From a virus, in IMG/VR virus record IMGVR_UViG_3300017917_000305, positions 1-57,216 of that record: DNA of 57,216 nt; one strand, given 5' to 3'. Made by a program: the position numbers and the translations under genes. Under the pieces are notes generated by a model. The model was not told where the DNA came from. It was given only the letters and a program-made list of their open reading frames with translations, and made no database searches. Of the stretch, positions 38,443 to 53,227 are shown in pieces; position 1 is the first letter of the stretch; every line of letters starts with the position of its first letter.

Positions 38443-40239
38443 ATGGCATATCAAGTAGATAAATTTAACGGAACATTCCTAGTATCGGTAGAAGATGGAA
38501 CTATCGATACAACCACAGATCTTCGATTTGTAGGTAAAAATTACGCTGGTTACGGCGAAGTACAAAATGAAAACTTTCTACATTTGTTAGAAAATTTTTC
38601 TAACAGTACATCGCCACCTAAAGTAATTAGAGGTCAAATATGGTTTGACAGCGCAAATAACAAACTTAAATTCTATGATGGTAGTAGATACAAAGTTGCC
38701 GGCGGCGCCGAAGCAAGTGCTAGTGCACCTTCTGGATTAACTACTGGTGATTTTTGGTGGAACACGTCATCAAAACAATTATATGCTTGGACTGGTACAG
38801 ACTTTGCCCTAGTTGGTCCAGAAACAAGTCCAGATTTGGGATCCTCAACTGTTGCTGCTTCGGTAGTACAGGACAGTAGTCTTAATTCTCACACTATATT
38901 AAAAATGTTCTCTGACAACAAGGTTGTTGGAATATTCAGTAAAGATGCATTTACTCTAGCAGCCGGTAGTGCAATTGAAGACTTTACAGTAATTAAAAAG
39001 GGACTTACACTAGCTAAGTCACAGTCAGGCGTAGGCACCGATGATTATGTAATGTGGGGAACTGCTAACAACGCAAATTTCCTAGGCGGATTTGCCGCTA
39101 ACCAATATTTAAAAATTGGTGAAAACGAATTTACCGAAGAAGTATCATTTAAAGATCCAGGATTTTCAGTTGGCGACGGTAACGATTTACGAATTCGTGT
39201 TGAAAACGGCGACGAAGTTATTGTTGAAAACAGATTAGGCAATGATATTACATTTAGAATTACAGTTACAGAAACATCAGACGAACGCGATGTTGCTATT
39301 ATAAGACCTACAGGAGTAATTCCAGGAAACGACAATGTATACACATTGGGTGTAGTAGGTTCTCGTTGGAACAACATATACTCTACTACAGTTACTGGAA
39401 ATCTAGTAGGTAATGTAACTGGAAATAGTACTGGAAATCATACAGGTAATGTGTTAGCTACCGACACAACTGTAATGATCAATGCTACAACTAAACAAAT
39501 TGGTTACACAGGCGCAACACTAGTTGGTACCTTAACCGGTTCTGTAACTGGTTCAGCAGCATCTGCAACTAATTCAAGTAAACTAAATGACCTAAGTCCT
39601 TCGATTACAGTGCCTGGAGGCGGACTAGCAAGTATTCCTGTTCGTGATACTAGCGGAAATATTACAGCGGTGCAATTTGTTGGTACATCTGATAAGTCAG
39701 ATAGAATCAGAATCAACAATTCTGCAACAGATCCTACTATAACTGGAAATATATCTGCTGCACCAACTGCTGATCAATATAGAACAGCAATGACAACACA
39801 AACCGCTTGGACAATTGCTGCTAGAGATGGTAATGCCGATTTAACAGCTAGAGTATTCAACGGTACTGCAACTTCAGCAAGATACGCTGACTTGGCAGAA
39901 AAGTATCTAGCAGATCAAGAATATGAAGTAGGCACAGTGGTAATGGTAGGCGGCGAAGCTGAAGTTACTGCTAGTGTTCAAGGTGCTCGAGCAATTGGCG
40001 TTGTAAGTCAAAATCCAGCATTTATGATGAACAGCGAATTAGAAGGTGGTACATATATTGCTCTTAAAGGCCGTGTTCCTGTTAAAGTATTTGGTCCTGT
40101 AACTAAAGGTGACAGACTGATTGCTGATAATAACGGATGTGCAATGGCATTAAAAGCAGTCCATCCAGAAACATTTGCAATTGCACTAGAAACTAATTTA
40201 GACAATGGCGAAAAAACAATAGAGGCATTGGTATTATAA
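38443..40239 (+). CDS. Tail fibre protein (fibre 4)
   Basis: A protein of 598 residues with the shared N-terminal module (NYAGYGEVQNENFLHLLENF, RGQIWFDS, GDFWWNTS). The middle has a shaft with TLGVVGSRWNNIYSTTVTGN, a common fibre motif. The C-terminal 120 residues contain SARYADLAEKYLADQEYEVG followed by TVVMVGG and a small beta domain with RAIGVVSQNPAFMMN; this C-terminal type is frequent in fibres of T4-like cyanophages and relatives. The next gene starts two bases after its stop, so they are translated together. Confidence 0.8.
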   Translation: MAYQVDKFNGTFLVSVEDGTIDTTTDLRFVGKNYAGYGEVQNENFLHLLENFSNSTSPPKVIRGQIWFDSANNKLKFYDGSRYKVAGGAEASASAPSGLTTGDFWWNTSSKQLYAWTGTDFALVGPETSPDLGSSTVAASVVQDSSLNSHTILKMFSDNKVVGIFSKDAFTLAAGSAIEDFTVIKKGLTLAKSQSGVGTDDYVMWGTANNANFLGGFAANQYLKIGENEFTEEVSFKDPGFSVGDGNDLRIRVENGDEVIVENRLGNDITFRITVTETSDERDVAIIRPTGVIPGNDNVYTLGVVGSRWNNIYSTTVTGNLVGNVTGNSTGNHTGNVLATDTTVMINATTKQIGYTGATLVGTLTGSVTGSAASATNSSKLNDLSPSITVPGGGLASIPVRDTSGNITAVQFVGTSDKSDRIRINNSATDPTITGNISAAPTADQYRTAMTTQTAWTIAARDGNADLTARVFNGTATSARYADLAEKYLADQEYEVGTVVMVGGEAEVTASVQGARAIGVVSQNPAFMMNSELEGGTYIALKGRVPVKVFGPVTKGDRLIADNNGCAMALKAVHPETFAIALETNLDNGEKTIEALVL

Positions 40240-40240
40240 A

Positions 40241-41149
40241 ATGACTACCGGATCAGACATCACAGCAGTTGGATTTAAAACAATTCAAGACAAGGCCGAC
40301 TCGCTTTTAGGTACTGGTGCTGGATCAAGAGGATATAATCTACCGATATTGTCAACAGATTACAGTCCTGGTACTAGGATTGAACAGGAACAATGGAATC
40401 GATTAAAATACGATATCATTAATCTTAAGTTTCATCAAGACGGTGTACCGCCTCCGATTGTATCAGTTAATGCTGGAGATTTAATATCTTTTGGTGCTGC
40501 TTCTCCAAACAGTAATTATAATACATTGTTAGAATCTGCGATTGCTAACAGATTTAATATTGGAGCTGCACACGCTTCAGTATCAGCTATTTCTACAAAA
40601 AGTTATTCTTCTGCTTGGTCGTCGCAAGCAACGTGTATAATTGATGCCACATTCTCATCTTATGATCAAGCTAGATATTTTTTTAATCGTGGCGGAAAAA
40701 TAAGAATTACTTCGGAACTAGTAGGCGGCAGTGCAACTCAACAGGTTAACGCCTGGAGAAACTTTTTAAGTTCTGTTGGAATGATTGAGTTTGGTGGCGG
40801 CACAAATTATAATGATTTAAATATAAATTTTTATACATTAACTACATCGTATCAAACGTTTTATCAATCTTCTTTAAGTACTCCTTATTCAGCAAACAAT
40901 TTTAGATTAAGAGCAAAATATAATACCAGCACTAATATACTTTCTATAGAAGTATCATTAAACGACTCTTATGTTGATAGCGGTCCGACTCCGCCAGGTG
41001 ATACAGTTGATGGTACTCTTAATATCTATTTTGAACAATTAACAGCAGCCGGAGCACTTTATCTTTTGGGAGATGAAATAAATAGCCCGTCAAGTACATT
41101 TAGCGGAATTACTCCTAGCTATTCTGTTTCAAATATTACTGCTTCGTAA
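40241..41149 (+). CDS. Virion-associated protein of unknown function (paralogue A)
   Basis: A protein of 302 residues, paralogous to the next gene. Both share W-x-x-L-K/R-Y-D-I-I-N followed by H-x-x-G-x-x-P near residues 67-85, a segment with ANRF/TNRFTV, and beta-rich repeats (EAARKFFNAGGEIRFSS in the paralogue, QARYFFNRGGKIRITSEL here). Position between fibres and the glycan island, under late promoters, suggests a virion or fibre-associated protein. I do not know the family. Confidence 0.6.
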   Translation: MTTGSDITAVGFKTIQDKADSLLGTGAGSRGYNLPILSTDYSPGTRIEQEQWNRLKYDIINLKFHQDGVPPPIVSVNAGDLISFGAASPNSNYNTLLESAIANRFNIGAAHASVSAISTKSYSSAWSSQATCIIDATFSSYDQARYFFNRGGKIRITSELVGGSATQQVNAWRNFLSSVGMIEFGGGTNYNDLNINFYTLTTSYQTFYQSSLSTPYSANNFRLRAKYNTSTNILSIEVSLNDSYVDSGPTPPGDTVDGTLNIYFEQLTAAGALYLLGDEINSPSSTFSGITPSYSVSNITAS

Positions 41150-41152
41150 TAG

Positions 41153-41160
41153 TGTAAATA
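41153..41160 (+). promoter_or_regulatory. Weak late promoter candidate TGTAAATA
   Basis: Seven of eight bases match TATAAATA, 25 bases before the ATG of paralogue B. It is listed with low confidence because the second base is off. Confidence 0.3.
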
Positions 41161-41185
41161 AACAATGAATTTGTTAGGGTAAATT

Positions 41186-42163
41186 ATGGCAGTTAATGAT
41201 ACAATTAGAGAATCCGATTACAACAATATTAGAAATAAAATTGTTAACGTAATTGGCACAGGTGCCGCCGAATCTGGTTGGGGACAAACTTTAGTTAGTT
41301 CTGCTGTAGCAACAGGAAATCCTGTAACCATAAACGAATGGGGCAAGCTTCGTTATGATATTATTAATGCCTACAAACATATTTACGGAACAACTCCAAC
41401 AACAGTACAACCTGCAGAAGGAAACACTGTAAGATACAGTAATACTTTTGTACCAAATACTACAACAGATGCACCAGTAACACAATATAATACCTATGTT
41501 GATACAATAGTAACAAATAGATTTACAGTTCATTCGAGCCAGGCATCTACGTTTTCGTATCCAGCAACATCAGCTACTTGGCCAGGAGCTCTTGGTTCGT
41601 ACTGGACTAGTAAAATTCAAGCTACGGTAACTGCTAGTTGGCCAACTGCCGAAGCTGCTAGAAAGTTTTTTAATGCAGGCGGTGAAATAAGATTTTCGTC
41701 TGCAAGAACTGGCGGTTCATCAACATCGCAGTGTGTGGCGTGGACTAATTTATTAACCGCAGCCGGCACTAGAGCGTTTGGCGGAAATAAACCAAATGCA
41801 TCTTTTGGAGTAATGGACGGCCAGAATTATTTTAGACTTACTAGCACACATCAAGTATGGTCATCTAATTTTTCTTCTTCCCCGTACGGAACTAATAATT
41901 TTAGAATATCGGCTAGATCACCAGGCGTTGCTAATAATAGTTTAGGAACTTCGGCCTCAGTTGAATTTTTAATTGAGTGGATTGATGCTTATACGGATCC
42001 AGGCAATTATCCATTAGATACTCCAAATACCATTGATGCAGTTGACGGTACATTCTCTTTATCAGTGTCGTATCTATATGCTTCTGGAGTATTAGAGCCT
42101 CCAGGTACAGGCAATTTTACAGTTAGTCAACCAACTGTAACTATTGGAGCAATTACTCTTTAA
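41186..42163 (+). CDS. Virion-associated protein of unknown function (paralogue B)
   Basis: A protein of 325 residues, a divergent duplicate of 40241-41149. Shared marks are GTGAAESGWG/GTGAGSRGYN, WGKLRYDIINAYKHIYGTTP, and EAARKFFNAGGEIRFSSART. The rest is Ser/Thr-rich and predicted beta. It may be a late virion protein exposed on fibres or baseplate. Function not known. Confidence 0.6.
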   Translation: MAVNDTIRESDYNNIRNKIVNVIGTGAAESGWGQTLVSSAVATGNPVTINEWGKLRYDIINAYKHIYGTTPTTVQPAEGNTVRYSNTFVPNTTTDAPVTQYNTYVDTIVTNRFTVHSSQASTFSYPATSATWPGALGSYWTSKIQATVTASWPTAEAARKFFNAGGEIRFSSARTGGSSTSQCVAWTNLLTAAGTRAFGGNKPNASFGVMDGQNYFRLTSTHQVWSSNFSSSPYGTNNFRISARSPGVANNSLGTSASVEFLIEWIDAYTDPGNYPLDTPNTIDAVDGTFSLSVSYLYASGVLEPPGTGNFTVSQPTVTIGAITL

Positions 42164-42178
42164 AATTTTTCTCTCTAC

Positions 42179-42209
42179 TAACATAGCCTATAAATAAACT
42201 GCTATGTTA
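42179..42209 (+). promoter_or_regulatory. Late promoter TATAAATA in the loop of a 9-bp inverted repeat
   Basis: TAACATAGC (42179-42187) is the exact reverse complement of GCTATGTTA (42201-42209); the perfect late box TATAAATA is at 42189-42196 in the loop. Transcription from it would start at about 42202, so late transcripts lose the left arm while read-through transcripts from the fibre genes keep the whole hairpin. The ribosome site AAGGAG (42213-42218) follows at once. It serves the nine-gene operon up to 49886. Confidence 0.75.
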
Positions 42210-42223
42210 ATCAAGGAGAAACA

Positions 42224-42574
42224 ATGCAAGAGCAACTCAAAAAAGCTCTAGAGTTTTCACAATACAAGCAAACTCTATCAATCCAACGAAAACTTCTTAA
42301 AGAAAAAATTGAAGCCAAATTAACTTTTGGGTTTGGCGGTGGCATCTTTAAAATTGATAGAACACTTATTACCTTTGTGCAGATGCTAGTAGATCAAGGA
42401 AGGACTGCGGGCGTAATACTATTAGATCAAAATGAAAATCCAATTCTAGTTGAAGATTTAGAATCTTTTAAGGATGAAATTTTGGATAGATATTTTACTT
42501 CTACTAACGAATACTTTGAACAGTACCAGGCACTTAAAAAAAGTCGATCTGTTGAGAAATTATTAGAAGTATGA
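42224..42574 (+). CDS. Conserved small protein of unknown function, first in glycan operon
   Basis: A protein of 116 residues: helical N terminus (KALEFSQYKQTLSIQRKLLK), a short beta part with GFGGGIFKIDRTLITFVQML and ILLDQNENPILVEDLE, then a C-terminal helix ending KKSRSVEKLLEV. I recognise the type as common and uncharacterised in T4-like aquatic phages, often among structural genes. It has the best ribosome site of the operon (AAGGAG) and its stop overlaps the next start (ATGA), so it may be a late protein made in high amount. Confidence 0.6.
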   Translation: MQEQLKKALEFSQYKQTLSIQRKLLKEKIEAKLTFGFGGGIFKIDRTLITFVQMLVDQGRTAGVILLDQNENPILVEDLESFKDEILDRYFTSTNEYFEQYQALKKSRSVEKLLEV

Positions 42575-43431
42575 CACACGGTATCTTAATGTATGCTCAT
42601 AACAACCGAACAGTTGATTATGCGTTAATGGCAATTATTTCTGCAGGGCTTGCTAAAAAACATTTAAATGTTCCTGCATCGCTAATCACAGATGCATCGA
42701 CAATTAATTGGATGAAAGAATCAAACATATATTCTAAAGCTACTGAAATATTTGAGCACATTATTGAAGTAGATCGTCCTATTACAGATAACAAAAGACG
42801 CCTCAATGATGGCTTAGATAATACTACAGTTCCTTTTGTAAACTCAAATAGATGTTCTGCTTGGGAATTAACACCCTACGATAGAACATTATTAATTGAT
42901 ACAGATTTTTTAATTTTGTCAGATCGATTAAATGAGTATTGGAACGTTGAGGATGACGTTTTAATTGGCGATGCTATTAACGATATTTACAGTCAGCAAC
43001 GTGTTGGCTATCACGACAAATATGTGTCTGACACTGGAGTTAAACTATACTGGGCTACTACTGTAATGTTTACAAAAAATCAACAGAGTAAATTTTTCTT
43101 TGAGATGGTAAACTATATTCGAGACAATTATAAACACTATGCCGATCTTTTTAGATTTGATAGTCGTCAATATAGGAATGATATTTCTTTTAGTGTGGCC
43201 AAACACATTTTACAGGGGTTTGAACAAGATTCTACACAATCGTTGCCGCCAGTGCTAACAGCATTAGATAAAGATGTGTTATATGATGTAGACAACAATC
43301 AGTTAAAATTTTTAATTAACTATAATTTAGATACAAATTTTTGTGCTGCTAATATCTCCGGAGTCGATGTACACGTTATGAACAAACAGAGTATTATTAG
43401 AAACAAAGATAAGTTATTAGGAATGCTATGA
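42571..43431 (+). CDS. GT-A-type glycosyltransferase-like protein (pair 1, member 1)
   Basis: A protein of 286 residues. The N terminus (GILMYAHNNRTVDYALMAII) begins a Rossmann-like half, and SAWELTPYDRTLLIDTDFLI carries a D110-T-D112 metal-binding DxD, the mark of sugar-nucleotide transferases of GT-A fold; a TPYDxxxxxDxD arrangement recurs in the next gene. Later parts (about 140-240) include ATTVMFTKNQQSKFFFEMVN. No signal peptide or membrane segment is seen, so it acts in the cytoplasm. The sugar and acceptor cannot be told. It overlaps both neighbours by ATGA. Confidence 0.7.
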   Translation: MTHGILMYAHNNRTVDYALMAIISAGLAKKHLNVPASLITDASTINWMKESNIYSKATEIFEHIIEVDRPITDNKRRLNDGLDNTTVPFVNSNRCSAWELTPYDRTLLIDTDFLILSDRLNEYWNVEDDVLIGDAINDIYSQQRVGYHDKYVSDTGVKLYWATTVMFTKNQQSKFFFEMVNYIRDNYKHYADLFRFDSRQYRNDISFSVAKHILQGFEQDSTQSLPPVLTALDKDVLYDVDNNQLKFLINYNLDTNFCAANISGVDVHVMNKQSIIRNKDKLLGML

Positions 43432-44267
43432 AATTTGGTTACTTGTTAGTAGTAGCAGAACACGAAACAGTTGATTATCTTCAATTGGCCTATGCATTGG
43501 CATTGAGTATTAAACATACTCAAAAGCCTGGATATGATCAAGTCGCTCTAGTAATTGACGATGCAAGTAAAGTTAAAAAACTTAATTCTGCTTGGGTATT
43601 TGATCACGTAATTGAATGGAACAAAGAAACCTTTTGGGATGGACGCAGTTGGATGGACGAGCTTACACCATTTGACGCAACTGTATGCCTTGACGCAGAT
43701 ATGTTGTTTACTAGGGACTACAGTCATTGGGTTGATTATTTTTTAGAAAATTGCGAGCTGTATGTTCCAAATAAAAGTTATACATACCGAGGTGAACCAG
43801 TAACTAGTGATGAATATAGAAAAACATTTACTAAAAACAAGTTACCGAATTTATATTCAATGTATACTTTTTTTAAAAAGGATTCTGAATTAGCCAAAGA
43901 ATTCTTTAATCTAGGTAGACAGATAATTAAAAATCCTATCGAATTTACTAATTTATTTTTAACTGAATATAAACCAAAAGTAGTTGGCACGGACGAAGCA
44001 TTCGCATTAAGTGCAAAAATATTAGATGTTGCTGATATTATTTCGTACGATTTAGATTTTCCTAAATTAGTTCATATGAAACCATTGGTGCAAAACTGGC
44101 CGTGGCCTGCTGAAAAGTGGTCAGATCACACAGGCATTTATATTAACAAACAAGGTAAAATAAAAATAGGAAATTATCAACAACACAATATTGTACATTA
44201 TGTTGAAAAAGATAGAATTAATACTGAGATAGTTAATATCCTAGAGGAATTAGTATGGAAGAACTAA
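43428..44267 (+). CDS. GT-A-type glycosyltransferase-like protein (pair 1, member 2)
   Basis: A protein of 279 residues, similar in plan to the preceding gene: FGYLLVVAEHETVDYLQLAY at the N terminus, and MDELTPFDATVCLDADMLFT with D89-A-D91 as the DxD. The later GTDEAFALSAKILD near 190 may supply the acceptor-side acid. The final 70 residues have LVHMKPLVQNWPWPAEKWSD. Probably an ancient duplicate with changed specificity. It starts in an ATGA overlap; its end overlaps the next gene by 13 bases. Confidence 0.7.
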   Translation: MKFGYLLVVAEHETVDYLQLAYALALSIKHTQKPGYDQVALVIDDASKVKKLNSAWVFDHVIEWNKETFWDGRSWMDELTPFDATVCLDADMLFTRDYSHWVDYFLENCELYVPNKSYTYRGEPVTSDEYRKTFTKNKLPNLYSMYTFFKKDSELAKEFFNLGRQIIKNPIEFTNLFLTEYKPKVVGTDEAFALSAKILDVADIISYDLDFPKLVHMKPLVQNWPWPAEKWSDHTGIYINKQGKIKIGNYQQHNIVHYVEKDRINTEIVNILEELVWKN

Positions 44268-44881
44268 TGGATTTTGACGAATGGTTACGCAATTATAAAC
44301 CAGCTGATCCGGAGTATGTTGCAGTTTTTGATCCGCATACAGGTTCGGTGATTAGTGTTGGACCAGTACACGCATTTGTTGACGAAAAAAATAAAATTCC
44401 TGTTGATCGAGAAACAGCAGAATCTATAATAGAAGGTAAAATTAAAATAGGATCTTGCGTTATTGATCTAAGTGCCAATACTTTACAGATTGCAGAAATA
44501 AAAAATATTTTTAAAATTGACGATGTGTTACATCGAGTTGTCAGTAAAGAATATGCAGATTTTGATAAACCAGATCTTTTTATTACACACAATTCCAAAA
44601 AGAAAAATTTAAAAATTGAGCTATCTGAAGAATATGGCGGTACTAAAAAACTAGCCAAAAAGTTTCAACCAGTTACTGCTAAACGGATAATTTGGGATGG
44701 ACAGACTGAAATGGATTTTTTAATTACCGATTATAACGATCCAAACGTGCTTTATGAAATGATTTCTGTTAAAATTAATGATCTAGTAGGAAAGTCTAAA
44801 ATAGTTGAGGATATAGATCACATTAGTTTTAGTGTTTATACACGTAGACTTTTTAAAAATTGTGTAATTGAATATAAATGA
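44255..44881 (+). CDS. Protein of unknown function in the glycan operon
   Basis: A protein of 208 residues. The first 80 residues (DPEYVAVFDPHTGSVISVGP, then VDRETAESIIEGKIKIG) look like a small beta domain; the rest is mixed with YGGTKKLAKKFQPVTAKRII and a C-terminal VYTRRLFKNCVIEYK. No catalytic motif is clear. The ATG at 44255 has an AGAGGA site; ATG 44267, overlapping the upstream stop, is the alternative. Being fixed between two glycosyltransferase pairs with overlapping ends, it probably works with them. Confidence 0.55.
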   Translation: MEELMDFDEWLRNYKPADPEYVAVFDPHTGSVISVGPVHAFVDEKNKIPVDRETAESIIEGKIKIGSCVIDLSANTLQIAEIKNIFKIDDVLHRVVSKEYADFDKPDLFITHNSKKKNLKIELSEEYGGTKKLAKKFQPVTAKRIIWDGQTEMDFLITDYNDPNVLYEMISVKINDLVGKSKIVEDIDHISFSVYTRRLFKNCVIEYK

Positions 44882-45783
44882 AAACAGTTGAATTTGATAT
44901 CGTATTTCTAAGTTACGACGAACCTAATGCAGATCTGCACTATGCAGATTTGTGCAACAAGGCTCCTTGGGCAAAACGTATACACGGAGTCAAAGGTAGC
45001 GATGCCGCACACAAAGCCGCAGCAGAATTATCAGAAACAGAATGGTTTATTACAGTGGATGCAGACAACATTGTAGATCCTAGATTTTTTGATTTAGATC
45101 TAGATATGACAGATCCTAAAATTCAAGTCTACGGCTGGTGCGGCCGTAACAGCATTAATGGTCTACGTTACGGTAACGGCGGATTAAAAATCTGGAAGAA
45201 AGACTTTGTACTTAATATGAAAACCCACGAAGCTAGTAACAGCGATCGGGGCCAGGTTGATTTTTGTTGGGAAGAAGGTTACCGTAATTTTCCTAGAGTG
45301 TACAGTGATAGCATTATTACAGGATCACCATTTCAAGCCTGGCGAGCAGGATTCCGCGAAGGCGTTAAGATGACACTACTCGATGGAGTTAAAGTTCCTC
45401 CGCAAGAAATCAAAGAACGTATTTGGTGGCATAACATTCATAGACTGCGTATGTGGTCAACTGTTGGCGCACACGAGGAAAATGGATTGTTTGCAGTATT
45501 AGGTGCTCGCCAAGGAACATTTATGGCCAACTGTACAGAATGGGACTATGTACAAGTTAGAGATTTTGAAGAGCTGCGTCGACTCTATAATGAAACAATT
45601 AAGGATATAGAAAGCAGTCCATTAAAAATAATTGAAATGATTACAGACCTAGGTGAATTGCTTAAAACACAACTAGGATTAGATTGGCCTAACTTTGATG
45701 CACAGCAGAGCAAATATGTTTTAGATTTGTACGACGAAACTATTAATTTAAACAATACCTATTATCAGCAATGTACGATATAA
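44878..45783 (+). CDS. GT-A-type glycosyltransferase-like protein (pair 2, member 1)
   Basis: A protein of 301 residues. It begins FDIVFLSYDEPNADLHYADL, then HGVKGSDAAHKAAAELSETE and WFITVDADNIVDPRFF with D61-A-D63 as metal site, the order typical of family-2-like transferases. NGLRYGNGGLKIWKKDFVLN is shared with the next gene. The C-terminal 100 residues are helical. Strong similarity of the first 70 residues to the next protein marks a tandem duplication. Substrate unknown. Confidence 0.72.
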   Translation: MKTVEFDIVFLSYDEPNADLHYADLCNKAPWAKRIHGVKGSDAAHKAAAELSETEWFITVDADNIVDPRFFDLDLDMTDPKIQVYGWCGRNSINGLRYGNGGLKIWKKDFVLNMKTHEASNSDRGQVDFCWEEGYRNFPRVYSDSIITGSPFQAWRAGFREGVKMTLLDGVKVPPQEIKERIWWHNIHRLRMWSTVGAHEENGLFAVLGARQGTFMANCTEWDYVQVRDFEELRRLYNETIKDIESSPLKIIEMITDLGELLKTQLGLDWPNFDAQQSKYVLDLYDETINLNNTYYQQCTI

Positions 45784-46448
45784 TTTTTATCAGCTATCAA
45801 GAACCAAATGCAGATATAAACTTTGCTAAACTTAAAGCACGGTTTCCTCGTGCCCAACGAGTACACGGAGTTAAGGGTATACATCAGGCACATATAGCAG
45901 CCGCAAAGAAATCCTTTACTAAAATGTTCTGGGTAGTTGACGGTGATGCAGAAATTGTAGATACATTTAATTTTGATTATGTAGCAGATGATTGGAGTCA
46001 AGAATGTGTACACGTTTGGCGCAGTATAAATCCAGTTAATGGATTAGAGTACGGCTACGGTGGAGTTAAACTACTGCCAAAAGCATTAACGGTAAAAATG
46101 GATATAACAAAACCAGATATGACTACAAGTATTAGTCCTTTGTTTAAAGCCATTGATGAAGTAAGCAATGTTACAGCGTTTAACACAGATCCCTTTAATA
46201 GTTGGAAATCAGCATTTAGAGAATGTTGTAAACTTGCCAGCAAGCTAATTGACAGACAGGATAATGCAGAAACAGAATTACGATTGGATCGCTGGTGTGT
46301 AGTTGGCAGTGACCTTGACGCAATCGCTGGTGCTCGCGATGGCCGCGCCTACGGCACGACTCATAAAGATGACCTTGAAGCATTGAAAAAAATTAATGAC
46401 TTTGATTGGTTAAAGGAACAGTTCGATGCAAGACGTATCAAGGATTAA
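45771..46448 (+). CDS. GT-A-type glycosyltransferase-like protein (pair 2, member 2)
   Basis: A protein of 225 residues, a shorter paralogue of the preceding one: IIFISYQEPNADINFAKL, HGVKGIHQAHIAAAKK, VVDGDAEIVDTF with D57-G-D59, and NGLEYGYGGVKLLPKAL. It lacks the helical C-terminal extension. Both keep the glycine-rich YGxGG loop. The start lies 13 bases inside the upstream gene, and its end overlaps the radical SAM gene by 23 bases, an unusually long overlap that suggests coupling. Confidence 0.7.
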   Translation: MYDIIFISYQEPNADINFAKLKARFPRAQRVHGVKGIHQAHIAAAKKSFTKMFWVVDGDAEIVDTFNFDYVADDWSQECVHVWRSINPVNGLEYGYGGVKLLPKALTVKMDITKPDMTTSISPLFKAIDEVSNVTAFNTDPFNSWKSAFRECCKLASKLIDRQDNAETELRLDRWCVVGSDLDAIAGARDGRAYGTTHKDDLEALKKINDFDWLKEQFDARRIKD

Positions 46449-47796
46449 AAAGTTTATTCCTATTATGAATGAAATTAGCCCAACGTTTTGTTTGGCTAAG
46501 TGGCATCACACAACTATCTATTTAGGTACTGGAGAAACGCACAGTTGCTATCATCCTGCTCCACACAAGATCCCCTTAGATGAAATTATCATCGATGCCA
46601 GTGCTTTACACAATACAGAACAAAAAAAGCACGAACGATTAGAAATGCTCAATGGCGGTAAACCCAGCGGCTGTAACTATTGTTGGAATATTGAGGCAAT
46701 GGGAGATGACTATATTAGCGATCGCAAAGAGCGCAACGCTAGTATCTATACCCCAGAACGATATCAACAAATTAAAGACGGTGATTGGGATCAAAACATT
46801 AATCCGCAATATATTGAAGTTAGCTTTGGTAACGAATGTAATTTCAAATGCGGATACTGCCATCCTAAACATAGTAGTGCATATTACAAAGAAATTAAAG
46901 ATTATGGTCCCTACACCGCAGTTAAAAATCACAGAAACGATATCGACTGGTTTCAAATTTACGAAGAGGAAACTAATCCGTATGTAGAAGCTTGGTGGAG
47001 ATGGTGGCCCGAAGCACGTAAGACATTAACAATTTTACGCATCACCGGCGGTGAACCGTTATTACAACAAAGCACTTGGCGACTATTAGATGATCTTGAA
47101 GTTAATCCCTTGCCTAATTTAGAATTAAACATTAACAGTAATTTTGGTGTCAAACCTGTATTAATCGACAGACTTGCAGAAAAAATAAACAAGTTATTAG
47201 CTAAAGGTGCTATAAAAGATTTTAAGATTTTTACCAGTATTGATACTTGGGGTGCTCCTGCGGAATACATTCGTACAGGTTTAGATTTAACTGTATGGGA
47301 AAGAAACTTAGACACATATCTTACTAAAACATTTTTGCCTGTTACTTTTATGATAACTTTTAATATCTTAACAGTACCAAATTTTCAAAGTCTATTAGAA
47401 AAGATCCTAGAATGGCGTGTTAAGTATAATGGGTTTGAGCAAGACAAGTGGCAGCGTATTCGCTTTGATACTCCGTTTTTGAAGGAACCATTACAATATG
47501 ATATGAATTTATTGCCTAAAGATAAATTTATGCCGTATATGAAAAACCACCTAGACTTCATTCTAGCCAATTTAGACGATAAAAACCGTAGTAAATTCAG
47601 TGAGTTAGAGTACGAAAAATTCCTAAGAGTTGTAAAATATATGGAAACGACCATATACACCCAGGAACGCCTGTTAGAAGGCAAAAGAGACTTCTTTAAT
47701 TGGTTTACTGAATATGACCGTAGACGCGGTACTAATTTTAAAACTACCTTTCCAGAATTAGTTGAATTTATGGAGCAATGTAGTGCAGTGGAATAA
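46426..47796 (+). CDS. Radical SAM protein with N-terminal auxiliary Cys region (1)
   Basis: A protein of 456 residues. The radical SAM triad is C138-x3-C142-x2-C145 (CNFKCGYC), followed by ITGGEPLL at about 205-212, which binds S-adenosylmethionine. N-terminal to it, C22, C41, C83 and C86 (GCNYC) look like ligands of an auxiliary iron-sulphur cluster of the SPASM/twitch kind, normally found C-terminal to the core. IFTSIDTWGAPAEYIRTGLD is the conserved part of the barrel near 272-291. The substrate is unknown; neighbours point to sugars or to a protein modified together with sugars. AAGGA is the ribosome site. Confidence 0.82.
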   Translation: MQDVSRIKKFIPIMNEISPTFCLAKWHHTTIYLGTGETHSCYHPAPHKIPLDEIIIDASALHNTEQKKHERLEMLNGGKPSGCNYCWNIEAMGDDYISDRKERNASIYTPERYQQIKDGDWDQNINPQYIEVSFGNECNFKCGYCHPKHSSAYYKEIKDYGPYTAVKNHRNDIDWFQIYEEETNPYVEAWWRWWPEARKTLTILRITGGEPLLQQSTWRLLDDLEVNPLPNLELNINSNFGVKPVLIDRLAEKINKLLAKGAIKDFKIFTSIDTWGAPAEYIRTGLDLTVWERNLDTYLTKTFLPVTFMITFNILTVPNFQSLLEKILEWRVKYNGFEQDKWQRIRFDTPFLKEPLQYDMNLLPKDKFMPYMKNHLDFILANLDDKNRSKFSELEYEKFLRVVKYMETTIYTQERLLEGKRDFFNWFTEYDRRRGTNFKTTFPELVEFMEQCSAVE

Positions 47797-48715
47797 ACCA
47801 GTTCTAAGTACCGAAGAGCAGCAGCGTATTTGGTTTGGTGACGTTGAAGTGTTTGTCAACGACGAAAATTTAAAACCCGACTGGGTGCAAAATCCAGCAT
47901 TGAATTCTGAATTTATTGTTAAACGAAATAAACCTAATCTATTAATTGTAATAGGTGAAAGTTGGGCATATGGTGAATCTTTAAAAGATGTAGCTACCGG
48001 TTTAGGACGATATAGCCTATCGTCGCAACTTGCTGGTTGTTTTGGACCTAGAATGGCACTGATGAAGGACTGTGATTATTATCAATATGCTGTTCCGGGT
48101 AATTGTAACTTTTATATGTTTCAAGAATTACCAAGAATTTTAGAATATGTAAGTACACTTGGATATAACAAAGTATATGTGTGTATGCAAATGACAGAAC
48201 CTGCTAGGGAAATGTCTATTGCACAAAAATTAATTGATACTCCTTTAAATGTTTTTTATCAAAGTTCTGAAAAGATTTCTTTTAAGAATTGGTTAAAGCA
48301 ATATGACGAAGTATTTTTTAAATGGTTTGATCAAATAATTAGTTCTTATAAAACTAAATGTAACATTGTTGATTCTATTATTTGGAAAAATTTTTGTTGT
48401 ACAAATACAGATGTTAGATACAATTCGTTTAAAGTAGTAGAACAGAGCTGGATACAATATTCGGCAAGAATAATGGGACAGCATTTAGATATGCCGGAGT
48501 TTTATTCAATTGGTTGGTTATCATCAATGCAAGAATGTTTTAGTAAGCGAATAACATTTGATATTCCGTATCTAAATCGTCAGGTTGATATCATAGAAAA
48601 ATCAAATAAATTCCTTACAGGCAATGTGTATCATTTCCCTCACCCGAATGAAATTGCTCATATGCTTTGGGCGCAGTATCTAGTTAAAGAAGCAGGGTGG
48701 ATTAATGGAATCTAA
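47783..48715 (+). CDS. SGNH/GDSL-like hydrolase or acyltransferase (1)
   Basis: A protein of 310 residues from GTG 47783, chosen because GGAG lies 7 bases before it; TTG 47762 would add seven residues. LLIVIGESWAYGES places a Ser (S60) in a GDS-like block, and HPNEIAH near the C terminus (H287, H293) supplies the catalytic His in the usual last block. The Gly block II may be YAVPGNCNFYMF. SGNH proteins remove or add acyl (often acetyl) groups on glycans, among other substrates. It overlaps the radical SAM gene before (14 bases) and the one after (11 bases). Confidence 0.65.
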   Translation: MQWNKPVLSTEEQQRIWFGDVEVFVNDENLKPDWVQNPALNSEFIVKRNKPNLLIVIGESWAYGESLKDVATGLGRYSLSSQLAGCFGPRMALMKDCDYYQYAVPGNCNFYMFQELPRILEYVSTLGYNKVYVCMQMTEPAREMSIAQKLIDTPLNVFYQSSEKISFKNWLKQYDEVFFKWFDQIISSYKTKCNIVDSIIWKNFCCTNTDVRYNSFKVVEQSWIQYSARIMGQHLDMPEFYSIGWLSSMQECFSKRITFDIPYLNRQVDIIEKSNKFLTGNVYHFPHPNEIAHMLWAQYLVKEAGWINGI

Positions 48716-49886
48716 AACTATCTGCATTTATCCCTGGATACACATTTATGCTAATCCAAACGGATCAGTATTGCCCTGTTGTGTGGCCGATCCGCACAAA
48801 CATATGGGCAATGTTCGAGATAACACAATAGAAGAAATCTGGAACGGCGATCAATATAAAACAATGCGTCAAAAAATGTTAGCCGGCGAACGTTGCGAAG
48901 AATGTAGTGGTTGCTATCGACAAGAAGATAGCGGAATTGAAAGTATACGGCAGGGTAAAAATAAAACATATAGTGAGCATATGCATCTAATCAATGATAC
49001 AAATCCAGACGGATCATTGAATGCAATGACTCTTAAACATTTTGATATTCGTTGGAGTAACATCTGTAATTTTAAATGTCGCAGTTGTAGCAGCACTTAT
49101 TCGTCAACCTGGGCGCAAGAAGATAATGCCAACGGACATAATAAACCTGTTTACATAATTGCTGGTGGCGATAATAACGATACACTCTACGATCAATTTG
49201 TTCCGCACTTTGCTGATATTGAAACTTTTTACTTTGCAGGTGGAGAACCACTAGTAACTGACAAACATTATGATATTTTAGAACACCTAATATCTATTGG
49301 TCGAACAGATGTTAAAATAGAATATAACACAAATTTAAGTATTTTAAAGTATAAACAAAAATCAGTAATTGACCTTTGGAAACATTTCTCTAATGTGCTT
49401 GTTCGAGCTAGTATTGACAGCTGGGGAGAACGTGCAGAATTTATACGAGAAGGAACTGAATGGGCAGTAATTGAAAACAACATACGTACAATACAAAAAG
49501 AAGTTCCACACGTTAAATTAGAAACTGGATCTGTAATTTCAGTTTTTAATATGTACACTATTCCAGAATTTTTAGATTATTTGTTTAAGAATAAGTTGTT
49601 TAATCAGCAGACATATTCTCCATATTTTTATAATATTATTACTCCAGAAATCTTTAGTGCAGATATTTTAGATAACAATATTAAAAATCTAATTATTAAT
49701 AAACTGTCGTCGGTTGATTACGGAGAAAAAATAAATCGGCAGATACAGAAGGTAATTACCTATGTTAAAAATTCTACGTATAATCCAGAATTAAAAGAAC
49801 AATTTTTAAATAGTACTTTCTATTTTGATAACATTAGGAATAGAAACTTTTTAGAAACTTTTCCTGAATTAAATTATCTCTATTGA
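48705..49886 (+). CDS. Radical SAM protein with N-terminal SPASM-like region (2)
   Basis: A protein of 393 residues. The N terminus reads like a SPASM motif: C7, PWIHIYANPNGSVLPCC (C25, C26), GNVRDNTIEEIWNG, then C64-x2-C67-x2-C70. The radical SAM triad CNFKCRSC (C121, C125, C128) comes after it, and FAGGEPLV at 177-184 is the SAM-binding motif. So the auxiliary cluster region precedes the core, reversed from peptide-modifying SPASM enzymes. It is the last gene of the operon and converges on the SGNH gene with an 18-base overlap. Substrate unknown. Confidence 0.84.
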   Translation: MESKTICIYPWIHIYANPNGSVLPCCVADPHKHMGNVRDNTIEEIWNGDQYKTMRQKMLAGERCEECSGCYRQEDSGIESIRQGKNKTYSEHMHLINDTNPDGSLNAMTLKHFDIRWSNICNFKCRSCSSTYSSTWAQEDNANGHNKPVYIIAGGDNNDTLYDQFVPHFADIETFYFAGGEPLVTDKHYDILEHLISIGRTDVKIEYNTNLSILKYKQKSVIDLWKHFSNVLVRASIDSWGERAEFIREGTEWAVIENNIRTIQKEVPHVKLETGSVISVFNMYTIPEFLDYLFKNKLFNQQTYSPYFYNIITPEIFSADILDNNIKNLIINKLSSVDYGEKINRQIQKVITYVKNSTYNPELKEQFLNSTFYFDNIRNRNFLETFPELNYLY

Positions 49887-50735
49887 TTGCGATTCTTTAA
49901 ATGTTACAGCTTTCTTTAATAGCTGCATTTCTTCAAATGACAAATTCCAAATAGCAAACTCTTTTTTTGTATTTTCTATTTTGTCTAAGATAAACTTAAC
50001 AAAGTTTTCTTGTACTTCTTTAACACGCTGATCTGTTTCTCTTTTAAATTGATGATCTGTAAATGTTTTTGTTAAGAATAGATAATGTTCTGCCGGATTC
50101 GGATGCCCATCGGAAAATTTATTTTTAAACAAATCTGCTTCTTTTAACAATTTGTTATTATAGATATTATTGTTCCATAGTTGTTTAAAAAAACTAGGTT
50201 GTATATCAGCTAGATCATTTTTATAAAGTTTGCAAAGCTCTTGATGTTTATTAGCCTGCTGTGCTTCAATTGAAAAAGAACTTCCTTGATCTATTTGTTC
50301 AGCAATATCGCACATTGATAGCATATGATATTGACACTGTATGTTTTGTAATAATTGACGAGCTAGGTGAATTGACGCAAAATCTCTAACCATATATCCT
50401 AAAGGGTCTGCCCAATCTTTAATAAATTTTTCGTCAAAGAAATTTTGAGTGTATATATTGCCTGGAGTAACCCATCCTAATTTTCTCCATCGATCCTCAC
50501 GGCATACATTAGTCCACGATACTATTACTAGATCATCCTTAGTAATGTTATGCTTAAGATGTGCCTGCACAAGTGAATTAACAATGTACTGATTCCCAGC
50601 ACCGCACTTACCGTAGTTATAGAAAGGAATATCTAAATCGTATGCAACAATTTCTGGCCAAGTAGACCAAAAGTATTCTGTAAAACTACATCCAAATGCA
50701 AACAGTCTAGAAACTGGTCTATTAATTAATTTCAT
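49869..50735 (-). CDS. SGNH/GDSL-like hydrolase or acyltransferase (2)
   Basis: A protein of 288 residues from ATG 50735; TTG 50747 would add four. LFAFGCSFTEYFWSTWPEIV carries the nucleophile S17 in a GxSFT block, NYGKCGAGN is the Gly block, LVIVSWTN may be the third, and DGHPNPAEHYLF the final Asp-His block. All SGNH elements are thus visible. It differs clearly from the first SGNH protein, so this is not a tandem copy. It is coupled to the upstream minus-strand gene by a 14-base overlap. The likely role is acyl removal or transfer on a glycan. Confidence 0.72.
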   Translation of the reverse strand: MKLINRPVSRLFAFGCSFTEYFWSTWPEIVAYDLDIPFYNYGKCGAGNQYIVNSLVQAHLKHNITKDDLVIVSWTNVCREDRWRKLGWVTPGNIYTQNFFDEKFIKDWADPLGYMVRDFASIHLARQLLQNIQCQYHMLSMCDIAEQIDQGSSFSIEAQQANKHQELCKLYKNDLADIQPSFFKQLWNNNIYNNKLLKEADLFKNKFSDGHPNPAEHYLFLTKTFTDHQFKRETDQRVKEVQENFVKFILDKIENTKKEFAIWNLSFEEMQLLKKAVTFKESQSIEII

Positions 50736-51954
50736 ATCTCTTATCAAGATCTTTTAAAAACGATACAAGTTTATCTTTGCTGTAAGACGAATTTACCATT
50801 GTTGTAAAATTATGCATTAATATTTCTTTATTTTTAAATCTCCAAGCAATTTGTTCTTCTCTAGACATTGCTTTTAATTTGTTTACAGTGTTAGTTATTG
50901 ATTCTAGTAATTTTTTATATCTTAGCACAGGATCTTTTTCAAAATCAAAACTTAGATCAAACCACTCATCATAGAGTTTATATCCTATTTCTTTTAACTT
51001 ATGATTGCATCCGGGCTGACCGTAGATAATTACTGGTTGAAAATATGCAATGGGTCTAAAGGTTTTTTCACTATAAAACATTGTTGTTTCGTTATGATCT
51101 AATACTAGTGTTTCGTTAACAATTTGAAATAATGTACTGTCGTGAATATGTCGATAGGGAGTATTAATTGCCCAATTACTGTTAAAGTCATCTCGATCAA
51201 CTACTTTTGGTAATGTTTTAGTCCATTTAAAAAATTGTTTAGGTTCAACATCTGCAAGCCCGTAGTTAATTAACCATTGACCAATAAACTCTTTATGAAC
51301 AGCAAATTTATCGTGACTAATAAGTCCGTGTTCTGCAATCTCTGACTGGCACAGTAAAAAGGTGCCGATAGTCCTGTATATCCGATTTACTCTGCTTAAA
51401 CTTGAAAAGAATTTATCTTTAAAATGTTCTTTACATTTGTCAATGGCTGTGCGTAACTGCGACTCTGCTTCTTCTTTTCCTTTCCGATCGTCTATGGCCA
51501 GTACCTGTTCAAACGATAAAAAAGAAAATACATTAAATGGCGAGTAATTTTTTTCTTTAGCATACTGTTGTATATTTTTTTCGTCTTGAAGATTAGACGA
51601 AACATAAATGATCATTCCCGGGTCAACCTTGTATTTTTGACAATTAAAATACAACATCTCAAAAAAAGGAAATTCTGCAGTGGGACTAAATCCTTCTGTA
51701 CTAGCGTCAAATACAAAAAATGATTTTTTGTCCTGCATCTTTTTGAGATGCACAGGATCTATAAATTGAAATATATCGCTGTTAGGTGACCACTTAGGAT
51801 ACTGTAACAATCCGTGAACATATGAAAAATTTCTAAGATTGTTAAATTCATTTTGGTGTTCTATAAATGCGTGCCTAACTAACACAGTAAACACAGTACC
51901 TGCACAGCTTTGAATATAGTTGTTGGTACTAATGGAATTCACAATCATTTGCAT
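50722..51954 (-). CDS. Probable glycosyltransferase, GT-B / fucosyltransferase-like
   Basis: A protein of 410 residues from ATG 51954, placed after the late box at 51986-51993; the frame is open further up but that part lies opposite the UDP-sugar dehydrogenase start. The diagnostic stretch is TTMFYSEKTFRPIAYFQPVI followed by IYGQPGCNHKLKEIGYKLYD, resembling the nucleotide-sugar-binding EK motif of fucosyltransferase- and exostosin-like proteins. The N-terminal half has KKSFFVFDASTEGFSP and a region with SFLSFEQVLAIDD. No signal peptide. It shares a unit with SGNH protein 2 just downstream. Confidence 0.6.
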   Translation of the reverse strand: MQMIVNSISTNNYIQSCAGTVFTVLVRHAFIEHQNEFNNLRNFSYVHGLLQYPKWSPNSDIFQFIDPVHLKKMQDKKSFFVFDASTEGFSPTAEFPFFEMLYFNCQKYKVDPGMIIYVSSNLQDEKNIQQYAKEKNYSPFNVFSFLSFEQVLAIDDRKGKEEAESQLRTAIDKCKEHFKDKFFSSLSRVNRIYRTIGTFLLCQSEIAEHGLISHDKFAVHKEFIGQWLINYGLADVEPKQFFKWTKTLPKVVDRDDFNSNWAINTPYRHIHDSTLFQIVNETLVLDHNETTMFYSEKTFRPIAYFQPVIIYGQPGCNHKLKEIGYKLYDEWFDLSFDFEKDPVLRYKKLLESITNTVNKLKAMSREEQIAWRFKNKEILMHNFTTMVNSSYSKDKLVSFLKDLDKRYEIN

Positions 51955-51977
51955 ATAAAAATTATCTCGGGTAAATA

Positions 51978-51986
51978 TGGTATTAT
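51978..51986 (+). promoter_or_regulatory. Possible extended -10 promoter for the UDP-sugar dehydrogenase
   Basis: TGGTATTAT matches the TGnTATAAT extended -10 form with one mismatch. Transcription would start near 51993, leaving a short leader with GGAG at 51994-51997. It overlaps the opposite late promoter. Confidence 0.3.
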
Positions 51987-51993
51987 ATTTATT
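51986..51993 (-). promoter_or_regulatory. Late promoter AATAAATA for the leftward glycosyltransferase and SGNH genes
   Basis: On the minus strand the box lies 31 bases before ATG 51954, with the start expected near 51980. Confidence 0.6.
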
Positions 51994-52003
51994 GGAGTGG
52001 TTG

Positions 52004-53227
52004 ATGCGTATTGGTTTTATTGGGGTGGGTAAATTAGGAATGCCTTGTGCAGAAGCAATGGCACAGAAAGGACATACCATTCTAGGCTATGACATAGAAC
52101 AACGAACCAGCAATTACGTTACAGTTGTCGACTCAATTAAAGAATGTGTAACGGATCAAGACATTGTGTTTATCGCAGTCCCAACTCCACACGATCCAGC
52201 ATACGATGGCAGAGACCCCACAGCTCACCTTAAACCTAAAGATTTTAATTACGACATTGTTAAACAGTGTTTAATAGAAGCTAACAAGTATATGAATAAA
52301 AGTCAATTGTTAGTTTTAATTTCTACAGTATTACCGGGAACAACTAGAAGAGAATTCGTTCCATTAATATCTAATACTCGATTTATTTACAATCCTTATC
52401 TTATTGCAATGGGATCAGTGTCTTGGGATATGGTTAATCCCGAGATGGTTATGATTGGAACTGAAAACGGAAAATTAACAGGTGATGCTCAAGAATTAAT
52501 GAGTTTTTACGAAACCGTAATGGAAAACAATCCAAGGTACGAAGTTGGTACCTGGGACGAATGTGAATGCATCAAGGTATTTTATAATACATTTATTAGT
52601 GCAAAAATTGGTCTTGTTAATATGATACAAGATGTAGCAGTAAAACAAGGGAACATTAATGTTGATATTGTAACTAATGCATTAGCTAAGTCTACAATGC
52701 GTATTATGGGTCCACAATATATGAAAGCAGGAATGGGCGACGGCGGTGCTTGTCATCCCAGAGATAACATTGCCTTGCGATATCTAGCACAAGAACTGAA
52801 TTTAGGATATGATTTGTTTGATTCTATAATGACAGCTAGAGAAATACAGGCAAAAAATTTAGCATTAGAATTAGTCAAACACGCTAAAGAAAATCGTATG
52901 AGTATTTTTATTCACGGTAAGGCATATAAGCCTGGAGTAGAATACTGCGATGGAAGTTACAGTTTATTAATTGGTCACTATTGTAAGGAGTTAGGATATA
53001 CTCCTACCTACATTGACCCGTTAACGGGTGATAACATAGAAGGTTGTTACGGTGTAGTACTGTTAGCACACAATAGAAAAGTAACGTACGAATATCGCGG
53101 ATTTAGAGAAAATCAAAATTTATACTGCAACATAGAAAAAGGGTCGATTGTAGTCGACCCTTGGAGAACATTTGAATCAACTGATCACACAGTTGTTCAT
53201 TACGGCAATACTAGAGAATCGATTTAG
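52004..53227 (+). CDS. UDP-sugar 6-dehydrogenase (UDP-glucose / UDP-ManNAc dehydrogenase family)
   Basis: A protein of 407 residues from ATG 52004, with GGAG 7 bases upstream; the frame extends to 51977 but without a site. NAD-binding G7-V-G9-K-L-G12 starts a Rossmann fold, VAVPTP is at 57-62, CIKVFYNTFISAKIGLVN (K201, N206) forms the central helix, and GDGGACHPRD carries the catalytic Cys C250. The enzyme oxidises a UDP-hexose at C6 by two NAD-dependent steps, making a UDP-uronic acid for the glycosyltransferases nearby. The last third is the second Rossmann domain (SIFIHGKAYKPGVEYCDGSY). A minus-strand terminator is embedded near its end. Confidence 0.88.
   Translation: MRIGFIGVGKLGMPCAEAMAQKGHTILGYDIEQRTSNYVTVVDSIKECVTDQDIVFIAVPTPHDPAYDGRDPTAHLKPKDFNYDIVKQCLIEANKYMNKSQLLVLISTVLPGTTRREFVPLISNTRFIYNPYLIAMGSVSWDMVNPEMVMIGTENGKLTGDAQELMSFYETVMENNPRYEVGTWDECECIKVFYNTFISAKIGLVNMIQDVAVKQGNINVDIVTNALAKSTMRIMGPQYMKAGMGDGGACHPRDNIALRYLAQELNLGYDLFDSIMTAREIQAKNLALELVKHAKENRMSIFIHGKAYKPGVEYCDGSYSLLIGHYCKELGYTPTYIDPLTGDNIEGCYGVVLLAHNRKVTYEYRGFRENQNLYCNIEKGSIVVDPWRTFESTDHTVVHYGNTRESI
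53134..53162 (-). terminator. Intrinsic terminator of the right-hand minus genes, inside the UDP-sugar dehydrogenase gene
   Basis: AAGGGTCGA and TCGACCCTT form a perfect 9-bp stem (53139-53147 and 53154-53162) with a 6-base loop; on the minus strand a T run follows. It lies 49 bases beyond the stop at 53211, within sense codons of the convergent gene. Confidence 0.75.

Follow-up and report, generated by a model that had tools for sequence, protein, structure and literature searches.

The structural region of pelagimyophage and cyanomyophage genomes contains a hypervariable block, the host recognition cluster (HRC), which lies between VrlC and the neck gene gp14 and combines tail fibers, glycosyltransferases (GTs; mostly GT8), and cassettes of radical S-adenosylmethionine (SAM) enzymes (PMC7029224). 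Interchangeable radical SAM (rSAM) modules are also known from the Campylobacter phages CP220 and CPt10 (PMC2853527), and a T4-like TARA genome carries 12 rSAM genes (PMC5332604). A further comparable process is the glycosylation of virion proteins by viruses themselves, as on the major capsid protein of PBCV-1 and in mycobacteriophages, whose capsid and tail tube are glycosylated by phage GTs (Freeman et al. 2023, as cited in PMC12619734). Here we analyze an operon of nine + strand open reading frames (ORFs), lettered A to I, at positions 42224-49886 of the IMG/VR viral record IMGVR_UViG_3300017917_000305 (57,216 nt; hereafter the window), which combines GT-like proteins with two rSAM enzymes. 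Given that the operon is of a late type, lies directly after the fiber genes, and is kept together in every relative examined, we tentatively propose, at a little under an even chance, that it performs a late modification of the phage's own fibers by glycosylation and rSAM-mediated tailoring.

The window resembles the HRCs in being T4-like, in having a fiber region with GT and rSAM genes, and in the presence of a UDP-glucose dehydrogenase in both (PMC7029224). However, the HRCs are described as non-syntenic, whereas the present locus has a fixed-order seven-gene core with overlapping genes and a single late motif; further, the HRC authors favored modification of the lipopolysaccharide (LPS) (PMC7029224). 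Pfam searches for gp14 (PF11649) and gp45 (PF09116) found no match in the records and are uninformative, because the control genomes gave no match either. The co-occurrence of GT and rSAM genes near fibers in aquatic T4-like phages is already known. An earlier sequence-only reading of the window took the union of rSAM enzymes with phage glycosylation to be a little-described chemistry; the combination had been noted before in T4-like phages, without a function (PMC7029224). The new element is the unit of seven genes itself, which is strictly conserved and is here defined together with its promoter, its accessory proteins, and its counterparts in cells. The locus shares with CP220, CPt10, and the TARA genome a T4-related background and many rSAM genes in interchangeable modules, the difference being that no GT core has been reported there; no homologs of the core proteins A to F were found in the CP220 stretch examined. 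As in PBCV-1 and the mycobacteriophages, the GTs are virus-encoded and soluble, the acceptors there being virion proteins and here candidates; to our knowledge, no rSAM enzyme forms part of those systems.

For about 15 years rSAM genes have been recorded in T4-like phages, with no function attached to them. In the present operon one defined rSAM family, NF033640, is linked to an unvarying complement of GTs, next to fiber genes and behind a late-type promoter, in hundreds of uncultured phage contigs, and the question of rSAM function therefore becomes testable. If the proposal is true, virions would be modified by a new route, with a bearing on host recognition and on escape, and the enzymes might also offer C-H chemistry that is new for carbohydrates or proteins.

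Gene order and the late promoter motif

All nine ORFs of the operon are present, with overlaps at 8/8 junctions, those at A/B, B/C, and D/E being of the ATGA type. Relatives were collected by scans of viral contigs with E (270 related contigs), B (573), and A (461), the best 80 of each being read, so that very distant relatives are under-sampled. The 209 loci annotated with profiles are not independent and form about 79 clusters by the B protein at roughly 90% identity. The overlaps are retained in these relatives, with spacings of -4 at A/B (56/59), B/C (67/67), and D/E (76/77), and of -13 or -16 at C/D (71/74). Among the loci with enough flanking sequence, A is linked in the same order to B (190/190), C (180/180), D (173/173), E (148/148), and F (87/87), and a twitch-domain rSAM gene lies within 9 kb of A in 87/87 (on the same strand in 84, on the opposite one in 3). 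Even divergent marine contigs, with identities of 25-50%, keep the order fiber-A-B-C-(D)-E-rSAM; their metagenome-assembled genome bins are assigned to Neomarinimicrobiota, Rickettsiales, Gammaproteobacteria, Rhodobacteraceae, and Bdellovibrionales.

H, I, and all genes further 3' are variable among the relatives. I was found in 30/80 loci of the E set, and a close-relative search with it among viral contigs gave no match; H was found in 4/80 loci of the E set and in one locus in its own scan. The sequence-only reading had described a complete nine-gene pathway. This is too strong, because H, I, and the 3' genes vary. That the genes are scattered singly in relatives is true of this variable part, but is refuted for the core, in which A to F keep together with an rSAM gene. 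By comparison of the sequences, then, the conserved unit is one of seven genes (A-B-C-D-E-F and the rSAM gene G).

The operon directly follows the fiber genes, as had been noted, and this position is itself conserved. Upstream of A are a 598-aa tail-fiber/virion protein (38443-40239, +; PHROG tail fiber/virion matches) and two small proteins that, by position and by the presence of their homologs upstream of A, are candidate acceptors, viz., f302 (40241-41149, +), for which no family match was found, and its companion f325 (41186-42163, +), with 24% Ser+Thr. In all loci that could be tested, the 1.5 kb ahead of A contain a homolog of f302 or f325 (155/155), and the 6 kb ahead of it a gene like that of the 598-aa fiber (115/115). 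The flanks point to a T4-like phage: the left end of the window has a T4_baseplate-family gene and gp46/47-like genes, and baseplate wedge and hub proteins and four long fiber/virion proteins are recognized by PHROG matches. The gp23 capsid gene is present in two large relatives.

A T4-type late promoter motif, TATAAATA, precedes A by 35 nt (42189-42196, +), and a related motif, GTAAATAA, precedes f325 by 32 nt (41154-41161, +); a motif of this type also precedes the T4_baseplate gene of the window. Late promoters with the sequences TATAAATA and NATAAATA have been described from T4/KVP40 and S-PM2 (PMC2984593). The 57-kb window contains three copies of TATAAATA, against 8.5 expected from shuffles, each shortly upstream of an ORF start. 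In relatives the exact motif or an NTAAATA variant occurs at -33 to -39 of A. A search for NTAAATA within 60 nt upstream of each gene recovered it before A in 58/58 relatives and before f325 in 40/48, versus 0/296 for B, C, D, and E together, 1/80 for F, and 9/51 for G; the exact TATAAATA is present in 20/38 distinct upstream regions of A versus 0/522 other upstream regions. Since the motif precedes A and f325 and is absent before B to E, the core is most probably transcribed late as a single unit, in one class with the neighboring f325. The late promoter suggested ahead of the operon is supported as a motif; as regards early transcription, the sole promoter-like motif is of the late type and is conserved.

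Enzymes and accessory proteins of the core

Four of the core proteins were predicted to be DxD-containing GT-like proteins in two duplicated pairs, and both pairs hold up. The first consists of B (42571-43431, +), a GT8/glycogenin-like protein with invariant D110 and D112, and its paralog C (43428-44267, +), with invariant D89 and D91; the two are homologous in hhalign comparisons (probability 95.7%, E 9e-9) and are remotely GT8-like. The Pfam Glyco_transf_8 model weakly matches 3/27 members of the B family (best E 0.0027), with no match to the B protein of the window itself, and B further shows weak matches to glycogenin (best E 0.45). The second pair consists of E (44878-45783, +), a GT-A-fold protein with an extra helical C-terminal region, and F (45771-46448, +), its shorter paralog with about 33% identity; they share an invariant DxD (D61 and D63, in 36 sequences) and a G-GG-K motif. 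No homology between the B/C and E/F pairs was detectable by alignment, and profiles of E/F, C, and D found nothing among the sequences in the PDB. The AF2 model of E (predicted local distance difference test score, pLDDT, 84) adopts a GT-A fold, with VIA Z-scores of 10-11 to many GT-A enzymes over about 140 residues (1-147). Its four best PDB matches in Foldseek are to the PBCV-1 transferase reported to glycosylate that virus's major capsid protein (2p73/2p6w/2p72; E 2e-5, template modeling [TM] score 0.2-0.3), an enzyme to which E is distantly similar at 14-21% identity. In some relatives, F is fused into a protein of 550-769 aa (L196 13491-15143; L218 13494-15494; L251 13523-15508; L058 10911-13220), whose first domain, on the evidence of its motifs, may be a non-catalytic copy, because WDD or WND (e.g., FFWVVWDD) replaces the DxD of F.

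The remaining core proteins other than the rSAM enzyme are defined by alignment. A (42224-42574, +; 116 aa), in which no catalytic motif was recognized, is always the first gene after the fibers. D (44255-44881, +; 208 aa) is a beta-rich protein (AF2 pLDDT 85), whose model matches uncharacterized phage proteins only, with no solved structure above Z 5. No transmembrane-type hydrophobic segment was found in any of the proteins A to I.

The two rSAM enzymes noted in the sequence-only reading are indeed present, namely the core protein G (rSAM1; 46426-47796, +) and the variable protein I (rSAM2; 48705-49886, +), both with a twitch domain. Their layout, which had been called permuted, is not new, because both belong to the named N-terminal-twitch family NF033640 (N_Twi_rSAM; cut-off 170 bits), as full-length members: G scores 310.7 bits (E 1.5e-92; model positions 1-397 of 398) and I 389.4 bits (positions 1-398). 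An N-terminal auxiliary-cluster domain is common to both, and in I residues 7-70 additionally match Pfam SPASM. The family itself is without an assigned reaction; its members here lie in a GT operon. Across 27 rSAM proteins the cysteines of the CX3CX2C motif (C138/C142/C145) and four N-terminal ones (C22/C41/C83/C86) are invariant. Compared with solved structures, the twitch region shows similarity to BtrN, a dehydrogenase acting on a sugar-like aminocyclitol (E 2.5e-4), a likeness that weakly hints at sugar chemistry; the NCBIfam side-matches include peptide maturases and weak QueE-type matches. A 281-kb relative with gp23 (L058) has 18 NF033640 matches, nine of them above the cut-off, in two clusters.

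Proposed fiber modification and its alternatives

From the enzyme classes, linkage, position, and motif read in the sequence, we infer a substrate, acceptor, and order of steps as follows. The sugars would come from the host in nucleotide-activated form and be remodeled in part by phage enzymes encoded in the variable 3' arm (a UDP-sugar dehydrogenase here, epimerases in relatives). B, C, E, and F would then attach them one after another to a fiber protein soon after its synthesis, at Ser/Thr or at a different side chain, with f302/f325 or the 598-aa fiber being the first candidates for the acceptor. A and D might be acceptor-binding or scaffold proteins, or themselves acceptors. The rSAM enzymes, with SAM and the auxiliary iron-sulfur cluster of the twitch domain, would oxidize, epimerize, or otherwise alter an unreactive C-H of the sugar or acceptor, and the SGNH proteins would add or remove acyl groups. 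The core would supply invariant first steps, with the variable 3' arm diversifying the surface glycan between phages. More broadly, these might constitute a widespread system of uncultured phages, in which fixed GTs and an N-terminal-twitch rSAM enzyme build a radical-tailored fiber glycan, with A and D as accessory components and a counterpart in the E-F-rSAM set of Bdellovibrionia; we regard this wider formulation as possible, and place it well short of an even chance.

The kind of chemistry, one part of the earlier suggestion of a late pathway for a virion glycan or glycoprotein, is well supported by the GT-A fold, the GT8-like B protein, and the nearby UDP-sugar dehydrogenase and nucleoside diphosphate (NDP)-sugar epimerases; the other part, the virion as its target, comes from context. 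The main rival concerns this second part: the GTs might instead remodel the host surface, altering LPS, O-antigen, or capsule so that the infected cell adsorbs neither competing phages nor released progeny, with the rSAM enzymes making a rare sugar for this glycan. Published work has read in this way both the GT8-rich clusters that occupy the corresponding position in pelagimyophages (PMC7029224) and the jumbo clusters of cyanophages (PMC7824862), and the variable 3' arm, with its UDP-sugar dehydrogenase and epimerases, does resemble an O-antigen cassette. Against this, the core is invariant, unlike the polymorphic O-antigen cassettes, and shares its late-type motif with the fiber genes. A to I also include no membrane protein, polyprenol-phosphate transferase, flippase, or polymerase, although LPS-core GTs can be soluble, and remodeling of the host surface would leave A and D with no role. 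We consider host-surface remodeling unlikely, albeit the strongest of the alternatives.

In favor of the virion as the target are the late motif, the constancy of the core, its unchanging place next to fiber genes, and the lack of a membrane or polyprenol step, none of them being decisive. Several points weigh on the other side. Gene position alone points to the virion, and the acceptors are candidates; a GT fold does not by itself give the acceptor. The late motif upstream of A is not evident in most of the marine relatives. The Foldseek TM-scores to the PBCV-1 enzyme are low (0.2-0.3) and other GT-A enzymes outscore it in VIA, while the BtrN match is weak and limited to the twitch region. 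Moreover, GT-rich clusters of aquatic T4-like phages have been read as modifying LPS or O-antigen (PMC7029224; PMC7824862).

A second alternative retains a protein target and changes the chemistry, in that the twitch-domain rSAM enzyme would modify side chains of a fiber or small protein (A, D, or f302/f325), in the manner of ribosomally synthesized and post-translationally modified peptides, with the GTs capping the product. SPASM/twitch rSAM proteins commonly act on peptides, and peptide maturases are among the closest NCBIfam side-matches of the present ones. Other isolates have rSAM genes near fiber genes without homologs of A to F, and in Agrobacterium phage Atu_ph07 the neighbor of an rSAM gene ends in a CHSSCHASCHNSRSRR tail. 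That phage excepted, no Cys-rich rSAM-substrate tail was found in the window or its relatives, and the window and core proteins have no Cys- or repeat-rich tail of this kind. Side-chain chemistry would also leave the four core GTs unexplained, and the likeness of the twitch region is to a dehydrogenase domain of the sugar type. We consider this alternative improbable.

Base modification involves rSAM enzymes such as QueE, and phage GTs are able to add sugars to modified bases. Hypermodification of DNA or tRNA as a defense against restriction by the host or against cleavage of tRNA, for which the weak QueE-type side-matches might speak, is nevertheless highly improbable in view of the late-type motif and the position after the fibers, of the finding of no thymidylate-synthase/hydroxymethylase-type protein in eight large, possibly incomplete, related contigs, and of the full-length match of both rSAM enzymes to NF033640, far above any QueE score.

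Variable 3' genes and wider distribution

The strand switch at 49.9 kb and the genes at the 3' end largely match their earlier description. Within the operon, H (47762-48715, +; TTG start) is SGNH-like by its GESW, GNxN, and HxxHPN motifs; GESW, GNxN, and HPN are invariant in three aligned sequences, but His takes the place of the block V Asp, and no Pfam match was found. Convergent to the operon lies a second protein, J (49869-50747, -), which is likewise SGNH-like by its motifs (GCSF ... DGHPN) and weakly matches Pfam DUF6996 (E 0.0025). The SGNH protein predicted inside the operon and the one predicted nearby are thus candidates by their motifs. K (50722-52080, -; 452 aa), which had been described as GT-B-like, is without profile support for this (no Pfam match; best PHROG E 0.05), and has weak homologs in the variable 3' modules of relatives. 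The predicted UDP-sugar dehydrogenase is recovered as a UDP-glucose/GDP-mannose dehydrogenase family protein (51977-53227, +; PF03721, E 2.4e-17; PHROG 9148, E 5.5e-97) with a catalytic-type GGACHPRD motif. As listed, K and the dehydrogenase overlap by 104 bases (51977-52080) on opposite strands. Both listed starts appear to be too early, because homology of the dehydrogenase begins at 52004, where a Met is probably its true start, and K has an internal Met. The 3' arms of relatives code instead for NDP-sugar epimerases, B12-binding rSAM proteins, a 2-oxoglutarate-Fe oxygenase, and other SGNH proteins.

Searches of 50,697 phage records found no match to A, C, E, or G (tblastn), to the operon region (megablast), or to the marine homologs of A, B, E, and the f-type proteins (tblastn); remote matches in phage records were to rSAM2 and the 598-aa fiber only. 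In the cultured phage Atu_ph07, gp170 (L125 16449-17339) sits between rSAM genes, downstream of a fiber gene related to that of the 598-aa fiber, and ends in SIGVDFCHSSCHASCHNSRSRR; it is a possible rSAM substrate.

Phages are not the only carriers of the E-F-rSAM set: E, F, and a twitch-domain rSAM gene are adjacent on a 493-kb Bdellovibrionia contig (L122 7980-11144), with chromosomal flanks comprised of MoxR-AAA, DUF58, and S49-peptidase genes. Homologs of E with 33-40% identity are also found on the chromosomes of Roseibium, Ruegeria, Labrenzia, and other Rhodobacterales, where each comes after genes for a GT4-type transferase and a 144-aa protein. These chromosomal occurrences lend support to a glycan-related role. 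In the Rhodobacterales loci (L099-L110; e.g., L101 6465-8906) this three-gene set has a GT28-type gene and a caspase/Sel1 gene as neighbors, and in one locus (L117) a VgrG gene follows. Elsewhere in the window, a single ORF of 4619 aa (17205-31064) lies between the baseplate wedge gene and the fiber genes.

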